From: a virus
Strand: one strand, 5' to 3'
IMG/VR virus record: IMGVR_UViG_3300019776_001021
Coordinates: 1 to 37,244 of that record
Length of the DNA stretch: 37,244 nt
Shown here: positions 9,497 through 32,946 of the stretch, piece after piece
Layout: each line of letters opens with the position of its first letter
Numbering within the stretch: position 1 is the first letter of the stretch
Position numbers and translations under genes: made by a program
The notes under the pieces: generated by a model
Database searches by the model: none
What the model was told of the DNA's origin: nothing
The model's input: only the letters and a program-made list of their open reading frames with translations

Positions 9497-9522
9497 AAAA
9501 GCCTCTCAATCGAGAGGCTTTT
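9497..9522. terminator. Bidirectional terminator between tail operon and integrase
   Basis: Perfect 11-bp stem AAAAGCCTCTC / GAGAGGCTTTT with loop AATC. It has A's on the left and T's on the right, so it works in both directions. The integrase stop codon lies inside the stem. Confidence 0.9.
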
Positions 9523-10717
9523 CGCTTAGTATTTCATCCATGTTAAAAATCTGGTCGTTTTTGATGCTTTCCACAATATGTACATATATCATGGTTTCAT
9601 CAATCTTCGAGTGCCCTAATATTTTTTGCAGCACTTCTACACGGCCGCCGGCTATAAGAAAGTTTGTTGCAAAGGTGTGTCTGGCCACGTGGAAAGAAAC
9701 CTTCTTTGTGATTTTTACGATTTTGCAGATGTCCTTTAGAGTTCGGTTTATGTACTCACCAGTGAACTCACCTTTGAAAAAGCTATCATCGGAGATAAAT
9801 TTTTTTGCTGAATCGTTCAATACGACACGCTGCACTTTGTCAGTTTTTTGAGCTACAAATACAATGTAATCACCAATAATACTTTCGCTGTCCAGTTTCA
9901 TTACATCGGAAATCCTTAATCCTGTAAAGCAGGAAAAAAGGAATTTTGACAATATTGACTTGTGTGTGTCATTAATCCACTTACTGCTCCAATACTCAAA
10001 CAGACTATTTATTTCTTTGTAGTCTAAGAATGTGCGTTCTCCTCTAAAATTCGTAACCGTAATATCTTCGTGAGATAGGTTAGTTCGGATTCCTCGTTTT
10101 TCGGCAATATGCAGGTACTTTTTAAAGTTTTTTGCAAAGGTGGAGACAGTAGATTTATTGTTTTTTCTTTTCACTTTTAAATAAATCAAAATCTCCTGGA
10201 ATAGTTCTGGATTGATTTCATAAAAATACAACCGGTCTTTAAACTCTTTCAGCTTGTTTAAGGCCGAAGTTTGCTGTCTATGAGTTCCCGGTTTAATAAT
10301 ATCCTTTTGACGCGTCAGCTCCTCCTCCCAAAATTTTATGAAATCAATGAATGAGGTAGGATTGTCTAATTCGTATATAAGCTTATCCATATTCAACGTC
10401 ACTCCTGAAAGACGATAATTCACTTCAATTACATTTATGTCTGACAGCTTCTTCTCAATGAGCAAATTCAAATCCTTATACATCGGATGCTTAGTGGATA
10501 TCCTTTGTTTCTTTTTATCGAAGTTCTCCGGCTTGACAGCGATGTTTAGCGGAATTCTTTTTCGCTCCGAATTCAGGAACATTTGAACAAACAGTGCACA
10601 GGTTCCGTCCTGTCTTTTGTAGTCGTCTTTAATTACGACTTTGTACGTTAGCTTCCCATCCATTTTTATTGGGTAGTTTAGTGGGTAGTTTTGGAAGAAT
10701 TTTACCGAGTTCATCAT
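9506..10717 (-). CDS. int: Tyrosine integrase (403 aa)
   Basis: Catalyses attP x attB recombination for lysogeny. An N-terminal arm-binding domain (about 1-100) is followed by a SAM-like core-binding domain (about 120-215) and a catalytic domain. Catalytic residues are visible: Arg268 in TGLRISD, His343 and Arg346 in HVARH, His369 in LGH, and the nucleophile Tyr378 in MIYVH. Length and layout match phage/ICE integrases of Bacteroidota. The start is ATG 10717 or 10714. It is on the minus strand beside the probable attP and repressor. The codons for NYPLNYP at residues 10-16 are made of two copies of a GGGTAG repeat that also flanks attP on the other side. Confidence 0.95.
   Translation of the reverse strand: MMNSVKFFQNYPLNYPIKMDGKLTYKVVIKDDYKRQDGTCALFVQMFLNSERKRIPLNIAVKPENFDKKKQRISTKHPMYKDLNLLIEKKLSDINVIEVNYRLSGVTLNMDKLIYELDNPTSFIDFIKFWEEELTRQKDIIKPGTHRQQTSALNKLKEFKDRLYFYEINPELFQEILIYLKVKRKNNKSTVSTFAKNFKKYLHIAEKRGIRTNLSHEDITVTNFRGERTFLDYKEINSLFEYWSSKWINDTHKSILSKFLFSCFTGLRISDVMKLDSESIIGDYIVFVAQKTDKVQRVVLNDSAKKFISDDSFFKGEFTGEYINRTLKDICKIVKITKKVSFHVARHTFATNFLIAGGRVEVLQKILGHSKIDETMIYVHIVESIKNDQIFNMDEILSEKPLD
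10669..10690 (+). promoter_or_regulatory. Candidate integrase arm-type sites, integrase side
   Basis: Two same-strand repeats, TTGGGTAGTTT (10669) and GTGGGTAGTTT (10681), 12 bp apart, lie inside the 5' end of the integrase gene. Similar TGTGGGTAT repeats occur on the far side of the attP core at 10871-10890. Paired repeats on both sides of a core are the layout of arm-type sites. Confidence 0.45.
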
Positions 10718-10751
10718 ACTTATATTTTTTAGATATTTCCCTAAAATGCTA

Positions 10752-10791
10752 AAGGCGAACAGCTTACCGTGATTGGTAAGCTGTTCGCCTT
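10752..10791 (-). terminator. Perfect 17-bp hairpin, probable tRNA-gene terminator carried in attP
   Basis: Stem AAGGCGAACAGCTTACC pairs perfectly with GGTAAGCTGTTCGCCTT around loop GTGATT. On the minus strand it lies just after the tRNA 3' fragment at 10808-10830, where a host tRNA gene would have its terminator. It could alternatively act for transcription entering from the integrase side. Confidence 0.65.
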
Positions 10792-10807
10792 AAAAATTAT
10801 AATGTTT

Positions 10808-10830
10808 TGTGACCTCGACAGGATTCAAAC
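10808..10830 (-). other. attP: Probable attP core: 3' end of a tRNA gene
   Basis: The minus strand reads GTTTGAATCC followed by TGTCGAGGTCACA. This is a T-loop (TTTGAAT) with its 3' stem CCTGT and a seven-base acceptor 3' strand CGAGGTC plus discriminator A. The bases 5' of the T-loop do not complete the T-stem, as expected if homology to the host gene begins near G53. Adjacent integrase, flanking repeats and a following terminator hairpin all fit integration into a tRNA gene that is rebuilt on insertion. The isotype cannot be named from this fragment. Confidence 0.7.
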
Positions 10831-10852
10831 ATAGCCCTTAATTGGTTGATAA

Positions 10853-10987
10853 TCAGATTTGTTTTTTTGTTGTGGGTATTTTGTGGGTATCGCGCTCAAT
10901 GATTCGGCTTAATTTTACAATCATTTCACTGTCCGATTCTCCAATAATAATTTGAAGTTCTACTTGATTTTCTTCTTCATTTTCCAT
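10853..10987 (-). CDS. Small acidic ORF coupled to the repressor (44 aa)
   Basis: ATG 10987 overlaps the repressor stop by 11 bases (ATGGAAAATGA), so it would be translated with it. The product is a short Glu-rich polypeptide (MENEEENQVELQIIIGESDS...) ending just before the attP core. Its 3' codons include the two TGTGGGTAT repeats. It could be an excisionase-like or regulatory peptide, or simply an open stretch over attP. No family is recognised. Confidence 0.4.
   Translation of the reverse strand: MENEEENQVELQIIIGESDSEMIVKLSRIIERDTHKIPTTKKQI
10871..10890 (+). promoter_or_regulatory. Candidate integrase arm-type sites, repressor side
   Basis: Two tandem copies of TGTGGGTAT with 11-bp spacing lie about 40 bp from the attP core. 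They match the GGGTAG repeats on the other side of the core in strand and in near-helical spacing. Confidence 0.45.
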
Positions 10988-11354
10988 GATTGCTTGTTGC
11001 TTTTTTTATAATGTTTAAAATTTTTTCTATTGATTCGGGATATTCTAAGTATTTTAAAAAAAGTTGGAAACCAGCATCTTTTTCTCCGTATGTAGGAAAA
11101 GGTTCATTTGAAAATAATAAACCTCCTGCTGAATAATCTATTTCAATTGGACCTTTACCAAAAATAACCCAATTCATATTCAAATTTGGATATGCTTTTG
11201 CTACTTGCTTTAGAGTGTTTAACCCAATTTTTCGGCCTCCTGTTATAATTTGATGGAAAGAATTGTATGAAATATCATTTTCGATACAAAATTTTCTTAT
11301 GCTAATTCCTTTTGATTCAAGGAATTGCCTTAATCTTTCTCCCTCTTCATTCAT
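10977..11354 (-). CDS. XRE/CI-type repressor (125 aa)
   Basis: The N-terminal helix-turn-helix of the Cro/CI (XRE) family covers about residues 5-65. It reads LRQFLESKGISIRKFCIEND, then the recognition helix SYNSFHQIITGGRKIG and a third helix. The sequence NWVIFGKGP after it is typical of Bacteroidota phage repressors. There is no LexA-type Ser/Lys peptidase domain, so induction by self-cleavage is not indicated. It is divergent from the early operon, with operator-like repeats in the shared promoter region, as expected for the lysogeny repressor. Start ATG 11354. Confidence 0.85.
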   Translation of the reverse strand: MNEEGERLRQFLESKGISIRKFCIENDISYNSFHQIITGGRKIGLNTLKQVAKAYPNLNMNWVIFGKGPIEIDYSAGGLLFSNEPFPTYGEKDAGFQLFLKYLEYPESIEKILNIIKKATSNHGK

Positions 11355-11382
11355 AGATTTAAAAAAATATGTAGTTTTTTGA

Positions 11383-11441
11383 TTGTATATCTCATAAAAT
11401 GTATATATGTTTGTAATAGTAAACTAATAGCTAACTAATAG
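11383..11441 (+). promoter_or_regulatory. Divergent early promoter with 11-bp-spaced operator repeats
   Basis: A Bacteroidota-type promoter is visible: TTG (11383) and TATGTTTG (11406-11413) separated by 20 bases, fitting TTG-N19-TAnnTTTG. Three repeats, GTAATAG (11413), CTAATAG (11424) and CTAATAG (11435), are spaced exactly 11 bp. They cover the expected start site. On the other strand TACATTTT (11396-11403) could serve the repressor. Also seen is the pair TGTATAT at 11384 and 11400. The repeats are probable repressor operators. Confidence 0.6.
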
Positions 11442-11483
11442 TAAAAATAGAACAAAAAAATTTAACAGAAATAGTGCTTTTCT

Positions 11484-11771
11484 ATGATAACAGTTGCGCA
11501 AAGAAATAAGATAAAAAAAGTACTCGGAAACCGCTATTCTAAAAGGGTTCAGGTGCTTTTGAATGAGAAAGGAATCTTTAACAAGAAAGATGAGACGTAT
11601 AGTATCGCATATATTTCACACGTTTTTAACGGTAGAAATAGTGATGATCGCATTGAAAAAGTAATTTTTGAATTGTATCAAAAAGTGAGAGATGAACAAT
11701 CAGAAATGCGTATAGAGAAAAAACAAATTTTAGAAAACAAAAAACCCGAAGCGGTCACTTCGGGTTCTTAA
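11484..11771 (+). CDS. First early gene, small basic protein (95 aa)
   Basis: First rightward gene after the operator region, in the place of a Cro or early activator. The protein is basic (QRNKIKKVLGNRYSKRVQVLLNEKG...), with a region AYISHVFNGRNSDDRIEKVIF that could form a helix-turn-helix of the kind found in small Bacteroidota phage DNA-binding proteins. This is not certain. The 3' end encodes PEAVTSGS and overlaps a terminator-like hairpin. The same 14 bases (GAAGCGGTCACTTC) end another early gene at 16776. Confidence 0.6.
   Translation: MITVAQRNKIKKVLGNRYSKRVQVLLNEKGIFNKKDETYSIAYISHVFNGRNSDDRIEKVIFELYQKVRDEQSEMRIEKKQILENKKPEAVTSGS
11745..11768 (+). terminator. Terminator or attenuator hairpin at the end of the first early gene
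   Basis: Stem CCCGAAG / CTTCGGG with loop CGGTCA, followed by TTCTTAATT. It lies over the last codons of the gene. The following T tract is weak, so attenuation of the early operon is as likely as full termination. Confidence 0.5.
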
Positions 11772-11802
11772 TTATTAACCTTTAAACGAAAAGATTAACG
11801 TT

Positions 11803-12387
11803 ATGAGCGACAAATCTACAACAATTGGTGTTATCCACCAAATTCCTGCCGGAATGCTATCGGATGATAAACGAACCGAAATTTTCGGAGATCGTCAAAC
11901 TAAAAAAACTTATTTCATTTCAGAAGGCATTACTTCTCCATTCGAGAAATTAAACTGCCACAAAAAAGCACTCATTTTTGAACAACTTCTTGATGATGAT
12001 GTGGCTTTAAACGACTTGAAGCATTTACCTCAAGATGAAGCTTTATCAAAATTCGCATTTTGTATATACGGTGCAGCTGATCATATTCCTGATTTTGATG
12101 AAAAAGGGAATTTAAATCAATCCGACAATTTTTTATGTTCAAACAATTGCACCTGTATTAAATGGAAATCCAAAAATATTACTGTTGATGGTAAACCGCT
12201 AACCAAAAAGCAAATCGAAATAGTAACGCTATTGGCTACCGATTTAGCCGACAAACAAATTGCCGACAAATTAGGAATTACCCAAAGTACACTCGACAGC
12301 CATAAAACAAAAATTTTCGAATTGTTTGGAGTTCATGGCAAACCTGGTCTTATCACTAAAGCTATTAACCAAAAAATAATCCAGTAA
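11803..12387 (+). CDS. LuxR-type helix-turn-helix regulator (194 aa)
   Basis: The C-terminal 60 residues are a GerE/LuxR-type HTH: LTKKQIEIVTLLA ... DKQIADKLGITQSTLDSHKT ... IFELFGVHGK. The N-terminal part has no recognisable receiver or ligand domain but has a Cys-rich patch (DNFLCSNNCTCIKW, about residues 109-122). It is an early gene followed closely by the replication genes. A phage-encoded regulator of this type is a candidate to act on the repeated TGTCCTATTTT boxes before the late genes. That link is inference. Confidence 0.75.
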   Translation: MSDKSTTIGVIHQIPAGMLSDDKRTEIFGDRQTKKTYFISEGITSPFEKLNCHKKALIFEQLLDDDVALNDLKHLPQDEALSKFAFCIYGAADHIPDFDEKGNLNQSDNFLCSNNCTCIKWKSKNITVDGKPLTKKQIEIVTLLATDLADKQIADKLGITQSTLDSHKTKIFELFGVHGKPGLITKAINQKIIQ

Positions 12388-12388
12388 C

Positions 12389-12844
12389 ATGAGTACAACT
12401 ATAACACTTACCGGACCACAGGCTTTATCAGAATTGAAACAATATTATCCTGAAACATGGCCAGTTGAAATTTTAAGAGGAAAAAGTATAATTAATGGAG
12501 CTATGAAAACTTTTGGTATGCCGATGTTTGAATCGGTTAGCAAATGGCTGAAGAAAACCGGTGCGACAAAAGATAATCATGCAATTATAGCAGCGCTTCA
12601 TATAATGCTATCAGAACAAAACCTATCCAAAAAACTTAAAGAAGTAGATTATGAAATTGAGCAATTCGTCAACCAAGCGTTCGCACTCGAAAAATCAGAA
12701 AATTTCTCCACAAAAGAATCCGGTGAACTCAGGATTTTTTACACGACAAAGCAGACTGAATTACAGCAACGTCGCATCGAACTCATTAACAGCTTCGAAG
12801 TTATTGGAGCCGAGCCGGTTAAAAAATCAATGTTTGCCAGTTAA
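12389..12844 (+). CDS. Hypothetical early protein (151 aa)
   Basis: Starts one codon after the LuxR-like gene and precedes the primase by 60 bases. The protein is soluble and mostly helical with a coiled-coil-like C-terminal half (SKKLKEVDYEIEQFVNQAF). No motif is recognised. Its position between a regulator and the primase-helicase suggests a replication accessory role, but nothing in the sequence proves it. Confidence 0.6.
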   Translation: MSTTITLTGPQALSELKQYYPETWPVEILRGKSIINGAMKTFGMPMFESVSKWLKKTGATKDNHAIIAALHIMLSEQNLSKKLKEVDYEIEQFVNQAFALEKSENFSTKESGELRIFYTTKQTELQQRRIELINSFEVIGAEPVKKSMFAS

Positions 12845-12904
12845 TAATTCAGGGATTACGATAGAGGAGTATTTCAATAAATATTTAAAGAATAGCTAAT
12901 TTTC

Positions 12905-15900
12905 ATGTACAAAGAATCAACCATAGACCACGTAAGAAACGCCGATATAGTTACAGTAGTAATGCACTACTGCGAGTTAAAACGTGCCGGTTCTTTATTC
13001 GAAGCTAAATCTCCATTCAATCCAAACGATAAAACTCCATCGTTTAAAGTTTCTCCTGTAAAAAACAACTTCGTTTGTTACAGCACCCAAAAGAAAGGTG
13101 ATGCCATTAAATTCGTAATGGAAAAAGAAAACTGCAATTTTGTTGAAGCAGTTGAAAAAATAGCAGGCATTTGCGGGATAGTATTGGAGAAGGAAGAAGT
13201 TACTGAAGAAGTTAAAAAGAAGCAATCTGAAAAAGAGGAGCTTTTTAAATTAATGGATTGGGCCGCTAAAAAATATCAAAAATCATTACACTCTCTTCCT
13301 GCTGATCATTGGGCGAAAAAAATGATTTCAGATCGTGAAATCAACGAAGAAACGTTACTCACTTTTGGTATTGGATTTGCGCCTGATGAATGGAAATTTT
13401 TAACCAACACGATTATTGAGCACGGTAAATTAGAGCCTGCAAAAACCGCGGGTATTGTTGGAACTAAAGATTCAAGTGCTTTCGATTTGTTTAAAAACCG
13501 CCTTATTTTCCCAATTGAAGACATTAATGGAAATATTATTGGATTTGGTGGTCGATGTTCTGACGATGATCCGGCAAAAGACTCCGGTAAGAAATATATT
13601 AACTCAAAAGAAACGGTTATTTACAGTAAAAGCCGTTCACTTTATGGAATTTTCCAAGCGAAAAATAGTATTTCAAAATCGAAAACCGCCATTTTGACCG
13701 AGGGTTATACAGACGTTACGGCAATGCATCAAAACGGATGTGATAACACGGTTTCTTCTGGTGGAACGGCTTTAACTGATGAACAATGTAAATTAATCAA
13801 GCGAATTGCCGCGCATGTTATTATTTGCCGTGACAATGATGGCTACGATGATAAAGGGAATCCTAAAGCAGGATTGAAAGCCGCTCTCGAAGACATTGAT
13901 AAATTATTGTTTAACGGATTGAAAACTTCGGTTTGCGTATTTCCTGAAGGAGAAGATCCTGATAGTTTTTCAAGAAAAATAGCAAAAGAAAAAATTGTAT
14001 TTGGAACGAAAAACCGACTTCCTGTAAGTTATGAGTCAATTTCAGAGTACGTGCCGCAAAACGCGCAGGATGCCGTTTTATGGAAAACCACATTTTTGCA
14101 CAATCAGGCAGCCAATGACCCTGACAAAATCTCAGAATCGGTTACTGCAGTAGCTAAAATGCTTTTTCAGATAAAAGACGATATCAAGCGCGGAGTTTAT
14201 ATGAAAGATTGTGCTAAAATTTTAAAGCAGCCAATCAAAAATTTAAAGGAAAGAGTAGAGGATTTAACAGAAATTGCGTTAGAAAATGCTGCTTCTGAAA
14301 ATAAAAAAACAGGAACCACGGCCGAGGATTTAGGGTTACCTATTGGTGCCGATTTTGAAGAATTTAAAGATTTTCGTTATTGTACAATAGGGAATTCGTG
14401 TTGGTTTCAAAGCCGAAACGGAAATTTTTTCAAAGGCACAAATTATAGATTAACGCCTCTTTTCCACGTTTACGGAAAAAGCGACAATAAGCGTTTGTGT
14501 GAGGTGGTTAATGAGTCAGGCGCAAAAAAACTGATAGATTTCGATAGTACCGATTTCGTTTCCAGAAATAAGTTTGACGAAGCATTGATAAACGAAGGTT
14601 TCTTTGTGAATTTAGAGAATTTTTCTGCAAAAGAATTCACCTTGATGCGTAACAGAATCCTATCGGACTTTGTAATGGCTTTCGAATTGAAAACGTTAGG
14701 ATGGCAGAAAGAAGGTTTCTTCGCTTTTGCGAATTGTGTTTGGGTTAACGGAATTATGAAAGAAGTAAATCAATACGGAATCGTTCAGGTTGAAACTGAT
14801 AAAAAGGAGTCTTCAGAATATTTCGAAGAAGTAAAACATTACTATTCACCGTCCTTTTCTGAAATATACAAGCACACCCGAGACGATGATGATCCGTATG
14901 AAAATGACAGATACTTTGTGTTCAAAAAATCCCCAACCACATTAACATCGTGGATGAAACAAATGCAGAAAGTTTACGGTAAAAAAGCAATTACCGGAAT
15001 AGCTTTTATCATCGCTTCAATGTTCCGGGATATTTACATAAAGCGTTACCAGTTCTTCCCTCATTTGTTTTTGACTGGAGAGAAGGGTTCGGGTAAATCA
15101 AAGTTTGGTGAATCGTTAGTGGCCATGTTCACTTATAAGCAAGAACCGTTCGATTTGAACTCAGGAACTCCGGTTGCTTTTTACAGAAGATTGTCCAGAA
15201 TTATGAATGCGCCTACAATGTTGGAGGAGTTCCATGACAATGTTGAAGATAAAATCTTCCAATCTTTAAAAGGTGCGTATGACGGGCGTGGTCGTGAAAT
15301 GGGTAAAGCCTCCGGTGACAATAGAACCACCACAACAAAGGTGAACAGTTCGCTTATTATTTTGTCACAGTATTTGTCAAGCCGGGATGATAACTCATTG
15401 ACTTCCCGTTCCATAATTGAGCATTTCATTAAGCCACAAGAAAGCTTCACTAATGAGCAATTACAGGAATACAGCCAACTGAAAGCGTGGGAAGAAGAAG
15501 GATTATCCAGTATGCTTATTGATATTCTTCAGCACCGTAAAGAAGTAGAAGAAAAGTTGCATATAACGTATGCTGAAATTAACAAGCAACTGAAAAAAGA
15601 ACTTCTGGGAATCGAATATCAGGAACGTATGCTTCAAAACTACGTGGCTTTATTGGCACCAATGAAACTGCTTCAAAATGCATTGGATTTTCCGTTTACC
15701 TACGAAGACATGCAGGCGCAATTTAAAGAGGCAATTATCGATAGTTCCGACCTTATTGTAGAATCGGAAGGATTGGCAGAATTCTGGAGAACATTGGAAT
15801 ATTTATTGGACCGTCAGCCTTACCCGCTTTTGGTTCGAGGTTCCCATTTCGTTATCGATACTTTTCCAAGTTTATCACTTCAAACCCGAAAAGGAGAAAA

Positions 15901-16237
15901 GGACAATGCTTGGGTCAACAAAGACAGAAAGAAGCTTCTTATGCTTCGTTTGAATGCTGTTCACCAATTGTATCACAAAGAGGTTTCAAGTCGCGAAGGA
16001 GTAGCGGTTATTACGGAAAACACACTTCGTAATTACTTCAAATCGAAGAAGTATTTCATTGGAGCCGTAAAATCACACCGATTTGATGATACCAGTACAT
16101 CTGCTTATGTTTTTGATTACTCGATGATGGAAGCTGGAGGAATACTGAACTTGGAGCGTGTTAAAAAGGAAAAAGAAGATTCAACTCCTGATAATAGCAA
16201 CGATGATCCGGATTTGCCGGATTGGTTAAAAAAGTAG
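12905..16237 (+). CDS. Primase-helicase (1110 aa)
   Basis: Large replication protein. A CHC2-type primase zinc-finger fold covers about residues 8-92 (SPFNPNDKTPSFKVSPV). However the usual CPFH and CFGC ligands read SPFN and CYST, so the metal site is mostly lost. The DnaG core follows ('LIFPIEDINGNIIGFGGR', about 180). The TOPRIM domain has Glu266 in TEGYTD and R-D-N-D-G at 319-323. The C-terminal half is a P-loop ATPase: Walker A GEKGSGKS at 725-732 and an acidic Walker B MLEEF near 772-776. The fusion provides priming and unwinding for phage DNA replication. It is the largest early gene and is followed by small accessory genes in the same direction. Confidence 0.9.
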   Translation: MYKESTIDHVRNADIVTVVMHYCELKRAGSLFEAKSPFNPNDKTPSFKVSPVKNNFVCYSTQKKGDAIKFVMEKENCNFVEAVEKIAGICGIVLEKEEVTEEVKKKQSEKEELFKLMDWAAKKYQKSLHSLPADHWAKKMISDREINEETLLTFGIGFAPDEWKFLTNTIIEHGKLEPAKTAGIVGTKDSSAFDLFKNRLIFPIEDINGNIIGFGGRCSDDDPAKDSGKKYINSKETVIYSKSRSLYGIFQAKNSISKSKTAILTEGYTDVTAMHQNGCDNTVSSGGTALTDEQCKLIKRIAAHVIICRDNDGYDDKGNPKAGLKAALEDIDKLLFNGLKTSVCVFPEGEDPDSFSRKIAKEKIVFGTKNRLPVSYESISEYVPQNAQDAVLWKTTFLHNQAANDPDKISESVTAVAKMLFQIKDDIKRGVYMKDCAKILKQPIKNLKERVEDLTEIALENAASENKKTGTTAEDLGLPIGADFEEFKDFRYCTIGNSCWFQSRNGNFFKGTNYRLTPLFHVYGKSDNKRLCEVVNESGAKKLIDFDSTDFVSRNKFDEALINEGFFVNLENFSAKEFTLMRNRILSDFVMAFELKTLGWQKEGFFAFANCVWVNGIMKEVNQYGIVQVETDKKESSEYFEEVKHYYSPSFSEIYKHTRDDDDPYENDRYFVFKKSPTTLTSWMKQMQKVYGKKAITGIAFIIASMFRDIYIKRYQFFPHLFLTGEKGSGKSKFGESLVAMFTYKQEPFDLNSGTPVAFYRRLSRIMNAPTMLEEFHDNVEDKIFQSLKGAYDGRGREMGKASGDNRTTTTKVNSSLIILSQYLSSRDDNSLTSRSIIEHFIKPQESFTNEQLQEYSQLKAWEEEGLSSMLIDILQHRKEVEEKLHITYAEINKQLKKELLGIEYQERMLQNYVALLAPMKLLQNALDFPFTYEDMQAQFKEAIIDSSDLIVESEGLAEFWRTLEYLLDRQPYPLLVRGSHFVIDTFPSLSLQTRKGEKDNAWVNKDRKKLLMLRLNAVHQLYHKEVSSREGVAVITENTLRNYFKSKKYFIGAVKSHRFDDTSTSAYVFDYSMMEAGGILNLERVKKEKEDSTPDNSNDDPDLPDWLKK

Positions 16238-16241
16238 TGTT

Positions 16242-16478
16242 ATGGCAATAGTAAAGGCAGAAATACGAAAAGCAACGAAGAACGATTTCTTTGAGCTGAA
16301 TGATGAACCAAAATTCGGAACAGTTTTTTTTCTTATGAATTCAAACGGTGAAATCGAACAGCAACCATACTATTTCACTCACCATACCGATAAGGCAGAT
16401 TTTAAAAAATGGTATGTAAACAAGCAATTATATGTTTTCTCGAGGCCTTACGAGGAAATGGAAATAATAGAAGAATAA
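16242..16478 (+). CDS. Hypothetical protein (78 aa)
   Basis: Follows the primase-helicase by four bases, so it is likely co-translated with it. The protein is small and aromatic-rich (FFELNDEPKFGTVFFLM ... WYVNKQLYVFSRPYEEMEI), probably a single beta-rich domain. No family is recognised. Operon position suggests an accessory early function. Confidence 0.6.
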   Translation: MAIVKAEIRKATKNDFFELNDEPKFGTVFFLMNSNGEIEQQPYYFTHHTDKADFKKWYVNKQLYVFSRPYEEMEIIEE

Positions 16479-16499
16479 TCAATAATTAATTTAATAATC

Positions 16500-16802
16500 A
16501 TGTCAGACAAAAATCAAAAACCGGAAGAGGCTAAGAACCAAACCAAAGCGAAAAAACACCAGGTGTTTGTTTCGGGAGAATTAAAATTTGAAACCGATAA
16601 AAAAGGGGATGCCTTAACCGAAGCTTACAAGCATCAGGAAGAAAGAGCCACGCCAATTGAAATCGTCCATCACGATACACAAAAAGTAACGCTTATGGAA
16701 ATTGGGCGTTACGAAAAGAATTATCGTGTAAAATCGGGTGACTATGCAAAGTTTGCAGAAAAACAACCCGTAAAAGAAGCGGTCACTTCAGAAGTAAAAT
16801 AA
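16500..16802 (+). CDS. Hypothetical lysine-rich protein (100 aa)
   Basis: Highly charged, with a disordered N-terminus (MSDKNQKPEEAKNQTKAKKH) followed by a short folded segment (HQVFVSGELKFETDKKGDAL...). It ends with QPVKEAVTSEVK. The EAVTS codons are the same 14 bases found at the end of the 11484 gene. A hairpin region with no gene follows. The function is unknown. Confidence 0.6.
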   Translation: MSDKNQKPEEAKNQTKAKKHQVFVSGELKFETDKKGDALTEAYKHQEERATPIEIVHHDTQKVTLMEIGRYEKNYRVKSGDYAKFAEKQPVKEAVTSEVK

Positions 16803-16804
16803 AC

Positions 16805-16861
16805 GGCAATTTGCCAACCCACGGCTCCGATTAAATGGATTGGGGAATTCAGGAGCCGTGG
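16805..16861. repeat. Intergenic hairpins
   Basis: A short palindrome GGCAATTTGCC (16805-16815) is followed by a 10-bp perfect stem CCACGGCTCC (16819-16828) / GGAGCCGTGG (16852-16861) with a 23-base loop. The right arm runs into GTTAACC. It lacks a T tract, so it is not a standard terminator. It could be an mRNA-stabilising element or a diverged recombination site related to the array downstream. Confidence 0.5.
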
Positions 16862-16881
16862 TTAACCTTTAAAACAACGTT

Positions 16882-16998
16882 ATGAAAATTAATCACGATC
16901 AATTTATTACAAGAATCCTTTGGTTCTCAATAGGATTTACAGTGGCAGTAATGCTTTTTATAGTAACCCTTTACATCTTGTTTTGCTATGAAATTTAG
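16882..16998 (+). CDS. Small single-pass membrane peptide (38 aa)
   Basis: ATG 16882 to TAG 16998 encodes a 10-residue polar start and one long hydrophobic segment (ILWFSIGFTVAVMLFIVTLY) ending in FCYEI. It overlaps the next gene by 11 bases. Its leader (TTAACCTTTAAA ... AACGTTATGA) matches the leader of the LuxR-like gene, which supports that it is expressed. Phages often encode such membrane peptides, for example for superinfection exclusion, but the function here is unknown. Confidence 0.5.
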   Translation: MKINHDQFITRILWFSIGFTVAVMLFIVTLYILFCYEI

Positions 16999-17524
16999 AC
17001 CGATATTATTCAGTACAGATATGGTTCAGGCAATTTTGGACGGTACCAAAACACAAACCAGAAGAGTTTTGAAGCCACAGCCAAACGAAAAATTCAAAGA
17101 ATACCCGACCATTGATTTTTGTGATTTTTCAAATAATGAATGGCATAATATATATGCTTCATTTGAAGATGAAAACGAATTTCATAATGTGATTAGCCCA
17201 TTAGGAAAAGAGGGGGATATTCTTAGAATCATTGAAAAGAAAGGAGGTTCAAATATTTACCTTCAAATTAAAGATATCAGGGTTAATCGATTACAGGATA
17301 TATCAGAAGAAGATGCTGTATCTGAAGGAGTTATAAAATTACAAAACGGAAGTTATCGCAATTATCACGACAAAAAAAGTGAGTCAAATTATATGTTTTC
17401 AAGTTCGGCAATACCTTCTTTCCAAACATTATGGTCCTCGACAAAGGGAGAAGAGTCTTGGTATTCAAATCCTTGGGTTTGGGTAATCGAGTTTGAACGA
17501 ATTGAGAAACCTAAATCATTTTAA
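16988..17524 (+). CDS. ASCH-domain protein (178 aa)
   Basis: The N-terminal motif FSTDMVQAILDGTKTQTRRV followed by 'LKPQPN' is the signature of phage ASCH-like proteins. It has a central RLQDISEEDAVSEG block and a C-terminal NPWVWVIEFERI strand. The ASCH fold is related to PUA and is thought to bind RNA or modified nucleotides. The family is widespread in phages with no fixed role. It overlaps the membrane peptide gene by 11 bases and is followed at once by a 61-aa gene, so the three form one operon. Confidence 0.8.
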   Translation: MKFRPILFSTDMVQAILDGTKTQTRRVLKPQPNEKFKEYPTIDFCDFSNNEWHNIYASFEDENEFHNVISPLGKEGDILRIIEKKGGSNIYLQIKDIRVNRLQDISEEDAVSEGVIKLQNGSYRNYHDKKSESNYMFSSSAIPSFQTLWSSTKGEESWYSNPWVWVIEFERIEKPKSF

Positions 17525-17526
17525 TC

Positions 17527-17712
17527 ATGAAAAAGACACTTACTGAATGGATTGACGAAGACAACAACGTCATTTTTAAAGAAACCATATTAGAGTGCGA
17601 ACTACCAAGAAAAGGAGAGTTTGTTATATGGATGAAAATGCATTTTGAAATAACATCTATCGAAAGAAATTTTGATCAAAAAAAGAATGTTGTAATGTTG
17701 AAAAGGCTTTAA
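17527..17712 (+). CDS. Hypothetical protein, stop codon inside the first palindromic site (61 aa)
   Basis: A small charged protein (MKKTLTEWIDEDNNVIFKE...), two bases after the ASCH gene. Its stop TAA (17710-17712) overlaps the TTTAAC that opens the first attC-like palindrome. Stops lying inside the recombination site are typical of integron cassettes, so this gene may be the last one of a unit upstream of the array. The function is unknown. Confidence 0.6.
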   Translation: MKKTLTEWIDEDNNVIFKETILECELPRKGEFVIWMKMHFEITSIERNFDQKKNVVMLKRL

Positions 17713-17839
17713 CGGATTAGGGCTTTGCGAAGGCAGGGCTTCAAGGCACAAAAGTTCAAATATAGCACAATGTTTAATGGTAGAACAAATGTTCAATAAA
17801 CCACTAATGCCCTGCTTTTGCAAAACCCTTGTTATGGGC
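17710..17839 (+). repeat. attC-like palindrome A
   Basis: Imperfect palindrome of about 130 bp. The left arm is TAAC (17710-17713), 5-base spacer, then 21 bases at 17719-17739. The right arm is 21 bases at 17809-17829, 1-base spacer, then GTTATGGGC (17831-17839). The arms match at 18 of 21 positions, and the three mismatches are transitions allowing G-T pairs in folded strands. The order R''-L''-loop-L'-R' and the size resemble VCR-type attC sites. Confidence 0.7.
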
Positions 17840-17867
17840 AGTACGGGTATTAACAACGAATTTTAAA

Positions 17868-18557
17868 ATGGAAATAAACAAAATATATAATGAAGATTGT
17901 TTGGAAACACTAAAAAGGTTGCCTGATAATTCTGTGGATTTGGTAATAGCTGACCCGCCTTATGAAATTGTATCTGGTGGCGGTGGCGGTTGCTTCGGAG
18001 TAGAACAAAGAGATTATCACAAAGGCGTAAAATCTTTAAGTGATGGATTTGAAAACGTAATACTTGACGAATGTAAAAGAGTACTGAAAGTATTCAATTG
18101 CTATTTCTTTTGTAGTAAAGACCAAGTATTACAAATATTACTTTGGGGTAAAGAAAACAATATGAATACTGATATACTTTGCTATCACAAGCTAAATCCA
18201 ATACCTACAACCAACAATAAATATTTATCTGATACTGAATATATAATTTTTATGAGAGGGCAAGGTGCTTATTTAGGTGGCGATTATGCAAGTAAGAAAA
18301 AATACTTTTTGCAAAATAACTCTAAAAGTGAATTTGAACACCCAACAGTTAAACCGCTAAACATAATTAGAACTTTGGTTGTAAATTCAAGTAAAGAGAA
18401 TGATTTAGTATTTGACCCTTTTATGGGAAGTGGAACAACGGCAGTAGCTTGTATAAAAGAAAAAAGAAACTTTTTAGGAAGCGAAATAGATAAAAATTAT
18501 TATTCAGTATTAACAAAAAGAGTATCAAATGAGCAGTCGCAAACGTCATTGTTTTGA
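17868..18557 (+). CDS. Orphan DNA adenine/cytosine-N4 methyltransferase (229 aa)
   Basis: Transfers a methyl group from S-adenosylmethionine to the exocyclic amino group of a DNA base. Motif IV DPPY is at 29-32, the SAM-site motif DPFMGSGTT at 183-191 and GSEIDKNYY at 204-212, giving the beta-class order of amino-methyltransferases. HPTVKP is at 158-163. ATG 17868 is chosen over an upstream ATG at 17829 that lies inside palindrome A. No restriction endonuclease is adjacent. The likely role is protection of phage DNA from host restriction. The whole gene lies between matching inverted ends (17831 and 18579), so it is the cargo of one cassette. Confidence 0.9.
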   Translation: MEINKIYNEDCLETLKRLPDNSVDLVIADPPYEIVSGGGGGCFGVEQRDYHKGVKSLSDGFENVILDECKRVLKVFNCYFFCSKDQVLQILLWGKENNMNTDILCYHKLNPIPTTNNKYLSDTEYIIFMRGQGAYLGGDYASKKKYFLQNNSKSEFEHPTVKPLNIIRTLVVNSSKENDLVFDPFMGSGTTAVACIKEKRNFLGSEIDKNYYSVLTKRVSNEQSQTSLF

Positions 18558-18565
18558 TGTCGATA

Positions 18566-18783
18566 GTATTGCCCATAACGTTCTCGCAGCTTGTTGCAGT
18601 TGCAAATTATAAACCTAAAACATTACAAAAATTATGACAGCAGAAGAAGAAACACTTGAAAAGATAAAATATGTATTATCGATGAATAATGATTCACAAG
18701 CAAGAAGAATAATCGAACAGTACGGGCATTACAGACACGAACAAGCCTTGCAATTGCAACAAGGTGGTGTTAGCGGTAGTGCT
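18566..18783 (+). repeat. attC-like palindrome B
   Basis: Left: GTATTGCCCATAAC (18566-18579), 7-base spacer, arm CAGCTTGTTGCAGTTGCAA (18587-18605). Right: arm TTGCAATTGCAACAAGGTG (18748-18766), 2-base spacer, then GTTAGCGGTAGTGCT (18769-18783). The arms match at 17 of 19. The long middle (about 140 bases) contains the start of an ORF. CATAAC here is the exact complement of the cassette start at 17831, not of the adjacent GTTAGC, as in integron cassettes. Confidence 0.65.
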
Positions 18784-18888
18784 TCTTTAAGAGAGCAATT
18801 TTATAAAGAAACAAATATTGCGCCAGTATTTGCTCAAAGAAATCCTTATATTCAATACATTAATTGGTTAGAAGAAAAATTAACATAA
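18634..18888 (+). CDS. Hypothetical protein spanning a predicted recombination point (84 aa)
   Basis: ATG 18634 lies in the loop of palindrome B, and codon 46 (GTT 18769) is the predicted crossover GTTAGC. The N-terminal 45 residues are helical and charged (EEETLEKIKYVLSMNND ...). The C-terminal part reads VSGSASLREQFYKETN and ends NPYIQYINWLEEKLT, which resembles C-termini of small Bacteroidota phage proteins. Composition looks coding throughout. If recombination occurs at this site, the C-terminal half would be exchanged or removed. The function is unknown. Confidence 0.6.
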   Translation: MTAEEETLEKIKYVLSMNNDSQARRIIEQYGHYRHEQALQLQQGGVSGSASLREQFYKETNIAPVFAQRNPYIQYINWLEEKLT

Positions 18889-18897
18889 AGTTATTTT

Positions 18898-19042
18898 AGC
18901 ATTACCGCTAACGTCCCGGTGCTTTCTGTCAGTGGCTTAGAATAAACACTGACCACACCAACACAAAACCACATTAAAATAATTGACGTTTTTCCGAAGG
19001 AAAAACTTAACCAAGCCATTGCAGAAAACACTTGTTATCACT
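18898..19042 (+). repeat. attC-like palindrome C
   Basis: Left: AGCATTACCGCTAAC (18898-18912), 6-base spacer, arm GTGCTTTCTGTCAGTGGCTT (18919-18938). Right: arm AAGCCATTGCAGAAAACAC (19013-19031), 2-base spacer, GTTATCACT (19034-19042). The arms match at 17 of 20 with one extra base on the left arm (T18929), like the extrahelical bases that orient attC sites. The loop holds a perfect hairpin GTTTTTCC-GAA-GGAAAAAC (18988-19006). CCGCTAAC complements GTTAGCGG at 18769. Confidence 0.7.
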
Positions 19043-19063
19043 TCGGCTTTAAAACACAAACAA

Positions 19064-19432
19064 ATGAGAAAATACAGATTAAAAAAAGAAGCTGTTACCT
19101 TTTTTAAAGAAAAATATGCTACTGCAATTTACCCAATAGAAACATGGGACGGATTAGGAATTGACATGGTAGCATTGGAAGAAGTAGAAGACGCTTACTT
19201 AGTATTTGGACATGAGAGCCTAAGACCTGATTCAAAATCTTCAAGTTTAGGCGGTTGGGATCAGGAAGGTTCAAGATTTTATTTTACAATTCGTTTTCCA
19301 GGCGTGAAATTTGGTGAGCATGACAAATTTAGTAACGGAAAAGTTGTTCGTGAATTGATGAATAAAATTCAAAGAGATATAAATAATTTCTATTCTGATT
19401 TTGTTTGCGACAGTATTTCACAAGCTGAGTGA
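19064..19432 (+). CDS. Hypothetical cassette protein (122 aa)
   Basis: ATG 19064 is 30 bases after the GTTATCACT that opens this cassette, and the stop TGA (19430-19432) lies inside its closing AGTGATAAC. The gene therefore fills the cassette from end to end. The protein is soluble: a basic helix (MRKYRLKKEAVTFFKEKYA), an acidic middle (VALEEVEDAYLVFG) and GGWDQEGSRFYFTIRFPG, probably one alpha/beta domain. No family is recognised. The reading frame is open back to the crossover base, so loss of the preceding cassette would fuse it in frame to the 84-aa ORF. Confidence 0.65.
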   Translation: MRKYRLKKEAVTFFKEKYATAIYPIETWDGLGIDMVALEEVEDAYLVFGHESLRPDSKSSSLGGWDQEGSRFYFTIRFPGVKFGEHDKFSNGKVVRELMNKIQRDINNFYSDFVCDSISQAE

Positions 19433-19445
19433 TAACGATTATATG
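19428..19445 (+). repeat. attC-like site D, left half only
   Basis: AGTGATAAC (19428-19436) is the exact reverse complement of the cassette start GTTATCACT (19034-19042). It is followed by GATTATATG, in the place of spacer plus arm. No complementary right arm or GTTA is seen before the recombinase start, so the array appears to end here with an incomplete site. Confidence 0.5.
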
Positions 19446-19487
19446 TACAAAAAATTCTAAACCACCAATAAATAAACACTATACGCC

Positions 19488-20288
19488 ATGAAAAACTCAA
19501 ACTTTATACAAAACTATGAGAGAGATTTAAAAGTTAAGAATTACTCTCAGAATACCATTAAAAATTATGTTTCACAGATAAATATGTTTTTGGGCTATTT
19601 TAAAGAAAAGGATAGCCCGAAACATATATCTTCAGACGACATAAAAAACTATCTCCTGACCGCGAAAGAAGTCAACAGCCAGCGGCACATGCACTCGGCT
19701 ATAAAACTGTTCTACAAATTAACTGTGCATCAGCCTAAAAAATTTCAGTTTATAGAGTATTCCCGCCGAGAAAAACGCTTACCAAAGGTTATCGATAAGG
19801 ATTACATCATTCAACAGATCGGTAAAATTGAAAACACGAAGCACAAAGCAATTATCACACTGACTTTTTCGACCGGAATGCGAGTTTCAGAAGTTTGCAG
19901 CTTAAAGATTGAAGACATCGACAGTAAAAGAATGTTGATCCTTATTAAAAACGCGAAAGGAAATAAAGACCGATATGTTCCGTTATCGCCAACCACACTG
20001 GAAACTCTTCGGATTTACTTTAAAGACTACCATCCGAAAGAATATCTATTTAACGGCCAATTCGATTTACAGTATTCGCATCGGAGCTGCAACCAGATTG
20101 TGAAGAAATATCTCGGCAACGAATATCATTTTCACCAACTTCGGCATTCAAACGCTACAGCTTTGTTAGAGTCCGGAACCGACCTGAGAATCATTCAGAA
20201 TCTTTTAGGGCACAGCAATGTAAAAACCACGGAAATCTATACGCATGTTTCCGTGAATTCTATCAGCAAGGTAAATACGCCAATCTAA
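19488..20288 (+). CDS. XerC/D-like tyrosine recombinase at the end of the cassette array (266 aa)
   Basis: Second tyrosine recombinase of the genome. A short SAM-like N-terminal domain (about 5-80) has NYSQNTIKNYVSQINMFLGYF. In the catalytic domain, Arg132 lies in TGMRVSEV, followed by a Lys-rich beta-hairpin (NAKGNKDRY). His216 and Arg219 are in HQLRH, His242 in LLGH and Tyr251 in TTEIYTH. The full tetrad is present, so it should be active. It lacks the extra insert before HxxR that marks integron integrases (IntI) and lacks an arm-binding domain. Position directly after the palindrome-bounded cassettes, same strand, makes it the candidate enzyme for them. Confidence 0.9.
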   Translation: MKNSNFIQNYERDLKVKNYSQNTIKNYVSQINMFLGYFKEKDSPKHISSDDIKNYLLTAKEVNSQRHMHSAIKLFYKLTVHQPKKFQFIEYSRREKRLPKVIDKDYIIQQIGKIENTKHKAIITLTFSTGMRVSEVCSLKIEDIDSKRMLILIKNAKGNKDRYVPLSPTTLETLRIYFKDYHPKEYLFNGQFDLQYSHRSCNQIVKKYLGNEYHFHQLRHSNATALLESGTDLRIIQNLLGHSNVKTTEIYTHVSVNSISKVNTPI

Positions 20289-20435: not shown

Positions 20436-20545
20436 GTTCCTTATTATACTCAATCCTAAAACCTATCGTTTCGAAAAATCCCCCGCACCCCCTAAATTGA
20501 AAAAATTTTACAAATTTTTTTTTGCGTAAAAAAGAGCGTGCAAAA

Positions 20546-20783
20546 AGTTCCACAGTTCCACAAATCCACAACTAACTATTTACTATAGATATTATCTATT
20601 TGATATATAATAGATTAAGTCTAATTAACTATAGTTGAATATTAAGTAAAATTGTGTGGGAAAGTTGTTGAACTTGTGGAACTATTTTTTTGAGTTCCTA
20701 CAAAATGACAGTAGTTTCCACAAGTTCCATGCATTTGGGGAACTTTAACTGATTGATTTTCAAAGTTGTGGAACTGTGGAACT
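20546..20783. other. Iteron cluster with AT-rich centre: candidate replication origin or control region
   Basis: This lies in the 597-base gap without genes (20289-20885). AGTTCCACA occurs twice at 20546 and 20554, and TGTGGAACT twice at 20767 and 20775. The outer pairs form a perfect 18-bp inverted repeat. Between them are TGTTGAACT-TGTGGAACT (20666-20683), AGTTTCCACA-AGTTCCATG (20713-20731), GGGGAACT (20737) and weaker copies. The centre (about 20571-20650) is almost pure A/T. Many iterons around an AT-rich stretch is an origin-like layout; binding of a regulator is the alternative. Confidence 0.55.
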
Positions 20784-31951: not shown

Positions 31952-32904
31952 TTTTAGCAACTACCGACGATTTAAAAAAATATATTTCAATTTCAGGAAG
32001 TTTTCAATTTCCGGACTTTGAGCCGTATGTAAATAAGGCTGCCGATTCTTTTACTGTAAAGTATGTAGGCAATCTGCATACGGAATTGGATGCTGTCCAA
32101 ACAGGAACAGATGCAGTAATTAAAAACCAAGCTCGAGAACATTTGCGCAGTGCATTGGCAAATTTCGGATACTTCATGTATTTGCCTTATGCTTCAGTGA
32201 TGATGGATAGCTCAGGTATTTCTGTTGTGAATAGTGATCAACGAAAAACAGCGGAGTGGTGGCAAATAAAAGACATTCGTCGCGAGCTTCTTCGTTCTGG
32301 TCATCAGTCCATGGATTTGTTGTTGAAATTACTCGAAGCAAATCCGACAAATTTTACAGATTATGCCACAAACTACAGCACAATAAACAATGAATTGTTG
32401 GTGAATTCCGCAATTGTGTTTTCAAAATATTATAATATTTCCGAAAGCCGTCAGACTTATTTGGCATTGCAGCCAATGCTTCGATTGGTTGAAGATCAAT
32501 ATTTGCACACATTCCTTTGTCCGGAGCTTATTACAGCATTAAGGCCAGAAGTTACCGGCAATCTTTTAAAATTGAAAACTGCCATTCAAAAAGCAATGGT
32601 AGCCTTTACGGTTGCCAAAGTTTCAAATATAGGCTTGTTTATTCTTGACGATAAAGGCCTTCGTATTGATTTTGAAAACATGATGGACGGTAGACGCGAA
32701 TCATCGTCATACGGAAAGACTGTAGATCAAACTGAAAAATTAGCAATTGAGCAAATAAATAACGGCACACAATACCTTCAGTTAGCCAAACAAATCATAG
32801 AAGATAACCCGACTGATTTTACACAATGTGCTTCCCCTTTGATTCAATCAAATTCAACAGGGGGATATTCTTCCTACGATACTAAAGGGATTTTCGGGCT
32901 TTAA
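31948..32904 (+). CDS. Head-tail connector-like protein (318 aa)
   Basis: Starts inside the portal stop codon. It is mostly helical, with a starting 'ATTDDLKKYISISGSFQFPDFEPYVNKAADSF' segment, as in adaptor-type proteins that dock under the portal. Length and position fit a Bacteroidota connector of unknown family. It is followed by a fresh TGTCCTATTTT box. Confidence 0.6.
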   Translation: MILATTDDLKKYISISGSFQFPDFEPYVNKAADSFTVKYVGNLHTELDAVQTGTDAVIKNQAREHLRSALANFGYFMYLPYASVMMDSSGISVVNSDQRKTAEWWQIKDIRRELLRSGHQSMDLLLKLLEANPTNFTDYATNYSTINNELLVNSAIVFSKYYNISESRQTYLALQPMLRLVEDQYLHTFLCPELITALRPEVTGNLLKLKTAIQKAMVAFTVAKVSNIGLFILDDKGLRIDFENMMDGRRESSSYGKTVDQTEKLAIEQINNGTQYLQLAKQIIEDNPTDFTQCASPLIQSNSTGGYSSYDTKGIFGL

Positions 32905-32906
32905 AG

Positions 32907-32920
32907 TGTCCTATTTTTTT
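32907..32920 (+). promoter_or_regulatory. Late promoter/activator box TGTCCTATTTTTTT before the fibre/lysis operon
   Basis: Exactly 40 bp before ATG 32947, with ACAATTTTACAT 11 bases before the start. The 30236 copy has GAATTTTACAT in the same place, so a second conserved element may exist. Confidence 0.6.
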
Positions 32921-32946
32921 GACACACATTATTACAATTTTACATT

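Follow-up and report, generated by a model that had tools for sequence, protein, structure and literature searches.

Integrons are viewed as devices of bacteria, and rarely of archaea, whose defining feature is the integrase IntI with its extra domain. This IntI-specific additional domain has been described as indispensable for the activity of IntI (Messier & Roy 2001, cited in PMC9668308), and IntegronFinder requires it. In phages, Qi et al. 2023 (PMC9892861) reported attC clusters without an integrase (CALINs) in virulent phages, Polaribacter phage P12002L among them, described IntI-type integrons in Vibrio and Shewanella prophages, and found that IntI1 recombines one site of P12002L with attI1. 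Bartlau et al. 2021 (PMC8776804) cultured the Polaribacter phages Freya_1 to Freya_10 on one host strain and read the integrases of Polaribacter phages and of Ingeline as temperate potential; integrons and attC are not mentioned in that paper. Our search of the open PMC literature, which left preprints and most subscription papers outside, found no earlier report of a phage-own recombinase of the kind described here. An earlier note on this DNA, made without database searches, had held that phage arrays with non-IntI enzymes are not an established system. This held in part: phage attC clusters and prophage IntI integrons are already published (PMC9892861), and what is new is a phage lineage that has a non-IntI recombinase and an attI of its own and carries its cassettes inverted.

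The window, which is the whole stretch of DNA analyzed here, is a 37,244-nucleotide IMG/VR virus record (IMGVR_UViG_3300019776_001021) whose genes include a terminase, a head protease, a portal-like protein and a primase. We conclude that it very likely carries a phage-encoded integron-like cassette-capture system (probability about 0.9), a reading made without any assay of recombination and one that supports the earlier note, which proposed that a phage carries cassettes in an integron-like array together with an enzyme other than IntI. A search of the phage collection with the opening 25 kb gave no close DNA match, and Rfam and tRNA scans of the whole window returned no match.

The array starts inside a left box GGCTTTAAC (17705-17713, + strand), identified by site scan as the 5′ bound of the array and part of the phage flank, and ends at 19435; no partner like GTTAAAGCC for this first box exists within 3 kb upstream. 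All array features lie on the + strand. Cassette 1 (17713-18578), with unit boundaries set by analogy with the Freya phage junctions described below, contains a long-loop palindrome (site A, 17713-17830), the right box GTTATGGGC (17831-17839), a DNA N6/N4 methyltransferase gene (17868-18557) and the closing left box GCCCATAAC (18571-18579). Cassette 2 (18579-18911) is built from palindrome arms at 18587-18605 and 18748-18766 (site B), the right box GTTAGCGGT (18769-18777), an 84-aa ORF (18634-18888) with its start codon inside the preceding palindrome, and the closing box ACCGCTAAC (18904-18912). Cassette 3 (18912-19435) comprises a palindrome (site C, 18912-19033), the right box GTTATCACT (19034-19042), a 122-aa ORF (19064-19432) assigned to no known family by domain search, and the closing box AGTGATAAC (19428-19436). 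No palindrome follows this third closing box, which borders instead on the attI-like element, itself conserved, and on the recombinase gene. The attI-like site AACGATTATATGTACAAAAAA spans 19434-19454, with crossover expected at AA|C (19435|19436), and a 266-aa tyrosine recombinase with conserved residues R132, K157, R219, H242 and Y251 is encoded at 19488-20288. The earlier note had described three exact 9-mer pairs, palindromes with arms matching at 18/21, 17/19 and 17/20 positions, spacers of 5/1, 7/2 and 6/2 bases, and genes ending in or near the left box; each of these held, with three of three pairs exact at the positions claimed. A blind scan for TAAC-spacer-arm...arm-spacer-GTTA recovered the three window sites with scores of 27, 28 and 23 and no further site at that score on the + strand of the window, and dinucleotide shuffles of the window produced 0.025 sites per strand at a score ≥22 and none at ≥24.

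The same arrangement recurs across many related phages of Bacteroidota. Relatives of the recombinase with 49–92% identity occur in many IMG/VR contigs, and an array lies directly upstream on the same strand in 97 of 98 non-redundant recombinase loci (duplicates removed, ≥700 bp upstream available), with 1–18 sites per array and a median of 4. Of 530 adjacent box pairs, 370 close exactly and a further 71 do so with a single mismatch, against 2.4% exact closure upon random pairing of the same boxes. Boxes are thus complementary within the cassette across relatives, as claimed earlier for the left box and its own cassette's start, so that circularization would restore an attC site. Between array and recombinase is an attI-like element, TAAC-TAnTATATnTA, formed by the RYYYAAC of the last cassette followed by TAnTATATnTA; across 109 non-redundant loci the core retains AAC in 100% and most TATAT positions in 87–99%. 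In 69 of 97 loci the last right box and the attI box close exactly, and 12 more loci are added if one mismatch is allowed (81/97). Comparison of the window with a locus encoding a 92% identical recombinase (L002) reveals, over the 20.8-kb stretch compared, DNA in common only at 19432-20200, a homology that starts at the attI box and runs into the recombinase gene. The array, its boxes, their closure and the attI-like site are shown from sequence by these comparisons.

Palindromic sites share a common anatomy. We collected 487 non-redundant closed sites, which fall into classes with ~46, 85 and 121 nt separating the AAC core from the GTT core, with left spacers of mostly 5 nt and right spacers of 1–2 nt. 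At arm positions the base varies and pairing is mostly kept; arm pairing was a selection criterion, and the percentages paired are therefore biased upward. A G·T wobble is conserved at arm position 13 or 14 (78% and 71%), a feature that played no part in the selection. Folding indicates that the gene-sense strand is more stable in 416 sites and less stable in 42, which gives only indirect support to a folded single-stranded substrate with one preferred strand. In the window, where the earlier note had proposed folding both strands of each site, sites A and B are more stable as the sense strand and site C favors the antisense strand.

Comparison of closely related phages demonstrates cassette exchange in nature. 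Loci L162 and L164 are 100% identical over 10 kb downstream, L027 and L028 are 99.8% identical over 10 kb, and L021 and L022 are 100% identical over 2.65 kb, and each pair diverges exactly at the attI TAAC into different cassettes; L032/L033, L023/L025 and L019/L020 are likewise identical downstream and different upstream, starting exactly at the attI box. The cultured Freya phages encode a homologous recombinase (35% identity), and we compared seven of the ten genomes (Freya_1, 2, 5, 6, 8, 9 and 10) with Freya_10 as the reference, over segments otherwise about 100% identical. Relative to Freya_10, the missing stretch measures 4.9 kb in Freya_1, 4.1 kb in Freya_2, 3.2 kb in Freya_5 and 307 bp in Freya_9, and in each genome it is bounded by ...YAAC on one side and the attI-like sequence ACCCCTATAACAACAATAAG on the other. 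Freya_6 corresponds to Freya_5 with the addition of a different 472-bp cassette, and in Freya_8 one internal unit of ~902 bp is precisely absent compared to Freya_10. Some Freya right boxes lack exact closure, and the empty attI junction predicted for Freya_10 would read ...TTGTTTACAACACCCCTATAAC... Whole cassettes therefore come and go at the predicted base among cultured sibling phages, and precise gain, loss and exchange are shown from sequence alone. The earlier note had expected gain or loss at the right-box G|TT and had stated that its reading would be refuted by related phages sharing the whole segment with no exchange at these points. We observed the opposite of this refuting outcome and found the expected gain and loss, but the crossover is at the left box YAA|C in gene orientation, which is G|TT when read on the other strand.

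The Freya junctions also define which piece moves. The mobile unit consists of the C of the left box, the palindrome, the right box, the gene and a YAA end, and can be written as (C - left arm - loop - right arm - GTTRRRY - gene - RYYYAA). Two further tests, each independent of the junctions, concur. An exact upstream partner exists for 14 of 61 first sites of arrays and for 253 of 323 internal sites, with a chance level of 1.4%. Where identical cassettes occur at different places, the upstream palindrome is common to them and the downstream one is not: L154 and L158 share a gene and a 121-nt upstream hairpin, both at 100%, two cassette copies within L217 share a 118-nt upstream hairpin at 100%, and cassettes in L179/L192, L211/L213 and L032/L195 likewise have the same upstream palindrome and different downstream ones. 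The longest ORF points toward attI in 409 of 436 non-redundant cassettes and in the reverse direction in 14, and the median unit is 388 bp. Hairpin and downstream gene thus constitute the mobile unit, with genes pointing toward attI, opposite to textbook integrons; both unit content and polarity are shown. The palindromes, placed by the earlier note as joints between units, belong to the unit of the downstream gene, and cassette polarity is accordingly inverted relative to attI. One case is unexplained by this model: L009:7153-7977 and L011:9125-9949 match at 95.6% over 825 bp from box to box yet have unrelated upstream palindromes, and it is possible that some exchanges use the other box. The textbook unit, running from right box through gene and left box to palindrome, was considered as an alternative and rejected by the Freya junctions, the first-site test and the co-travel of hairpins. 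As a separate observation, identical 29-nt "empty" cassettes GTTATAAAATCGTTTTAATGTTTTATAAC without a gene occur at L028:276-304, L144:7206-7234, L180:2329-2357, L180:2720-2748 and L185:9914-9942, and TCGTTTTAATG is also the loop of short 46-nt sites.

Inverted polarity has consequences for expression. Because cassette genes face attI, they can have no drive from an attI-side promoter, and each cassette would supply a 5′ leader itself, part of which lies within the attC loop. In long sites, an ATG-initiated loop ORF remains open across the right box in 203 of 290 cases, compared to 84.5 ± 7 when the loops are shuffled and 43 when the opposite strand is read. In the window, a 29-aa leader ORF (17777-17866, + strand) starts in the loop of site A and reads through the right arm and right box. 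We infer that the attC loop supplies the leader for the cassette gene, a leader that would be needed because no attI-side promoter can reach an inward-facing gene. The 84-aa ORF of cassette 2 has its first half in the attC loop and arm and its second half in the cassette body; since it straddles the right box, exchange at that box would fuse different protein halves.

The recombinase is not an IntI enzyme. Its domains are Phage_integrase and SAM-like only, with no Arm DNA-binding domain, and the integron-integrase model TIGR02249 (cut-off 265 bits) matches it in two pieces at 154 bits. The stretch from the catalytic lysine to the HxxRH motif measures 64–65 aa in the phage enzymes versus 111 in IntI and mostly 69–77 in Xer-type proteins, and the IntI-specific domain is therefore missing from the phage enzymes. 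In phylogenetic analysis IntI forms its own clade (100/100) and the phage enzymes group with Bacteroidota 375-aa Xer-like proteins (95/92). A single clade of phage enzymes and IntI is rejected (p-AU 0.0005), but a grouping of the two that admits two CPR-type sequences is not (p 0.08), and a second origin and a deep ancestry shared with IntI are both compatible with these results. Among solved structures, the closest are those of XerA-like proteins from archaea and of IntI4 from V. cholerae, and an AlphaFold model (mean pLDDT 85, pTM 0.64) confirms only a XerA/IntI-like fold. The enzyme class is thus shown, and by this criterion the system is not an integron; that it works like one is inferred from sequence, with no recombination assay. 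The L017 and L030 recombinases are mosaic, with an N-terminal half resembling one group and a C-terminal half another, suggesting recombination inside the recombinase gene.

Among 100 diverse large cassette proteins, Pfam identified 8 N6/N4, 4 C5 and 2 D12 methyltransferases and 2 Mom proteins, along with 2 YopX, GNATs, a PAPS reductase, an RNA ligase and others; most had no match, and the set was chosen for length, so these fractions are not representative. A gene 86% identical to the cassette 1 methylase lies 3′ of the recombinase in phage L009. Methyltransferase and Mom-like cassettes would protect against host restriction, an anti-restriction benefit that is inferred.

In the mechanism we propose, a cassette circle would present its palindromic attC-like site as a folded single strand, and the recombinase would join this to the attI-like site beside its own gene, which stays double-stranded, inserting the cassette at YAA|C, and units would later be excised or reshuffled by site-by-site recombination. 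Phages would in this way swap accessory genes via the array, notably DNA methyltransferases and Mom-like modifiers. The role of this recombinase as the catalyst, the single-stranded substrate and the choice of strand cut are all inferred. A bolder reading is a second origin of integron-type capture in Bacteroidota phages, from a Xer-like recombinase without the IntI domain, as a dedicated, self-owned exchange with inverted cassettes of mainly DNA-modification and counter-defense genes. We consider this reading as likely to be wrong as right; if true, folded single-strand attC recombination does not need the IntI domain.

Several features of the window and of related loci are recorded here beside the array. 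A second tyrosine integrase with an Arm-DNA-bind domain, of ordinary Bacteroidota phage type, is encoded at 9506-10717 (− strand), and a small ORF at 10977-11354 (−) resembles an HTH repressor by eye; together they possibly form a separate, ordinary lysogeny module. The gene order LuxR-like, large primase, recombinase is common to window positions 11803-20288 and Cellulophaga phage Ingeline_1 (L239), suggesting that the window phage is a Duneviridae relative. Just 3′ of the recombinase gene (20542-20783) is a cluster of inverted and direct AGTTCCACA/TGTGGAACT copies, possibly a regulatory or replication element. In bacteria, the Bacteroidota genome G107 contains a chromosomal prophage-like copy (L299) with recombinase, attI box GCAGGTAACTATTATATATC and a C5-methylase cassette. 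Group II introns (RF02001) interrupt this copy at three places, at reverse-complement coordinates of about 3576, 5874 and 8043; they are nearly identical to one another, and each lies right after the palindrome's right arm and inside the right box GT|T, reminiscent of group IIC introns homing to attC sites in bacterial integrons. A second copy (L300, G317; reverse complement 10487-12186) has a 45% identical recombinase, a different attI-like sequence and a single palindrome; the right box of this palindrome, GTTAGCGGT, has an exact closing partner, ACCGCTAAC, ahead of the gene.

One alternative, which we consider very unlikely and already largely refuted, is that a phage acquired an ordinary bacterial IntI-type integron, of the sort that Qi et al. 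2023 described in Vibrio and Shewanella prophages. In its favor are the attC-like site anatomy and box closure, the TIGR02249 match of 154 bits, and the existence of phages with IntI integrons (PMC9892861). Against it, the score falls far below 265 and is split in two, the K-to-HxxRH distance is 64–65 rather than 111, cassette polarity is inverted, and IntI stands as a separate 100/100 clade, with the joint clade rejected except when the two CPR-type sequences are admitted. A double-strand Xer/dif-like exchange at the TAAC core, similar to pdif modules and with the palindromes as mere terminators, is slightly less improbable but still unlikely. The enzyme is Xer-like, hairpins 3′ of genes often terminate transcription, and the exchange points are short conserved cores; but dif-type sites are sequence-conserved, whereas here the arms vary almost freely yet stay complementary, with asymmetric spacers (5 and 1–2 nt) and a conserved G·T wobble. 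Moreover, the palindrome is at the start of the mobile unit and not its end, and generic terminators were rejected as an explanation of the palindromes since the loops encode leaders into the next gene. Least tenable is a prophage integrase acting beside repeats that attract homologous or illegitimate recombination, which is supported by the temperate reading of the Polaribacter phage and Ingeline integrases (PMC8776804) but opposed by the other, ordinary integrase in the window, by variant genomes that differ exactly at the box beside the recombinase gene and not at a host att site, and by cassettes without homology beyond short boxes.

If cassette capture by a phage-own recombinase is true, phages own a modular route for swapping anti-restriction genes through a Xer-like enzyme, the orphan attC clusters of phages are explained, and some of the "integrases" behind temperate phage calls are not lysogeny enzymes. 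It would also provide a compact enzyme for asking what folded-strand recombination needs, and because the Freya isolates are cultured the system is testable at once.

Among known systems, the Polaribacter phage of Qi et al. 2023 resembles this locus in having methyltransferase cassettes and sites like attC. On the gene strand of P12002L, our scan places sites of the present form at 32492-32924 and 38880-40948, whose identity with the site tested in PMC9892861 is not established, and the P12002L annotation contains no recombinase; a phage-own integrase, attI and inverted polarity were not reported in that study. The window enzyme has XerA-like proteins among its nearest structures and the Bacteroidota 375-aa proteins as its nearest clade, but unlike the window system, the examined members of that clade (42–46% identity) have no attC-like arrays within 10 kb, a few prophage-like cases apart. 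Bacterial integrons with IntI, attI and attC, including class 1 integrons and Vibrio superintegrons, share with the phage system a tyrosine recombinase gene that has attI next to its 5′ end, small cassettes arranged in arrays with one palindromic variable-loop site each, RYYYAAC/GTTRRRY boxes that close within the cassette, a G|TT cut, the R′′/L′′/L′/R′ site anatomy, and the entry of new cassettes at attI. They differ in that the phage system is phage-carried, its enzyme lacks the IntI-specific domain and falls outside the IntI clade, its spacers are 5 and 1–2 nt, its attI core is TAAC-TAnTATATnTA, and its cassette genes run toward attI rather than away from it for Pc expression. When the other strand is read, the phage system has its recombinase, attI and G|TT cut placed as in an ordinary integron.
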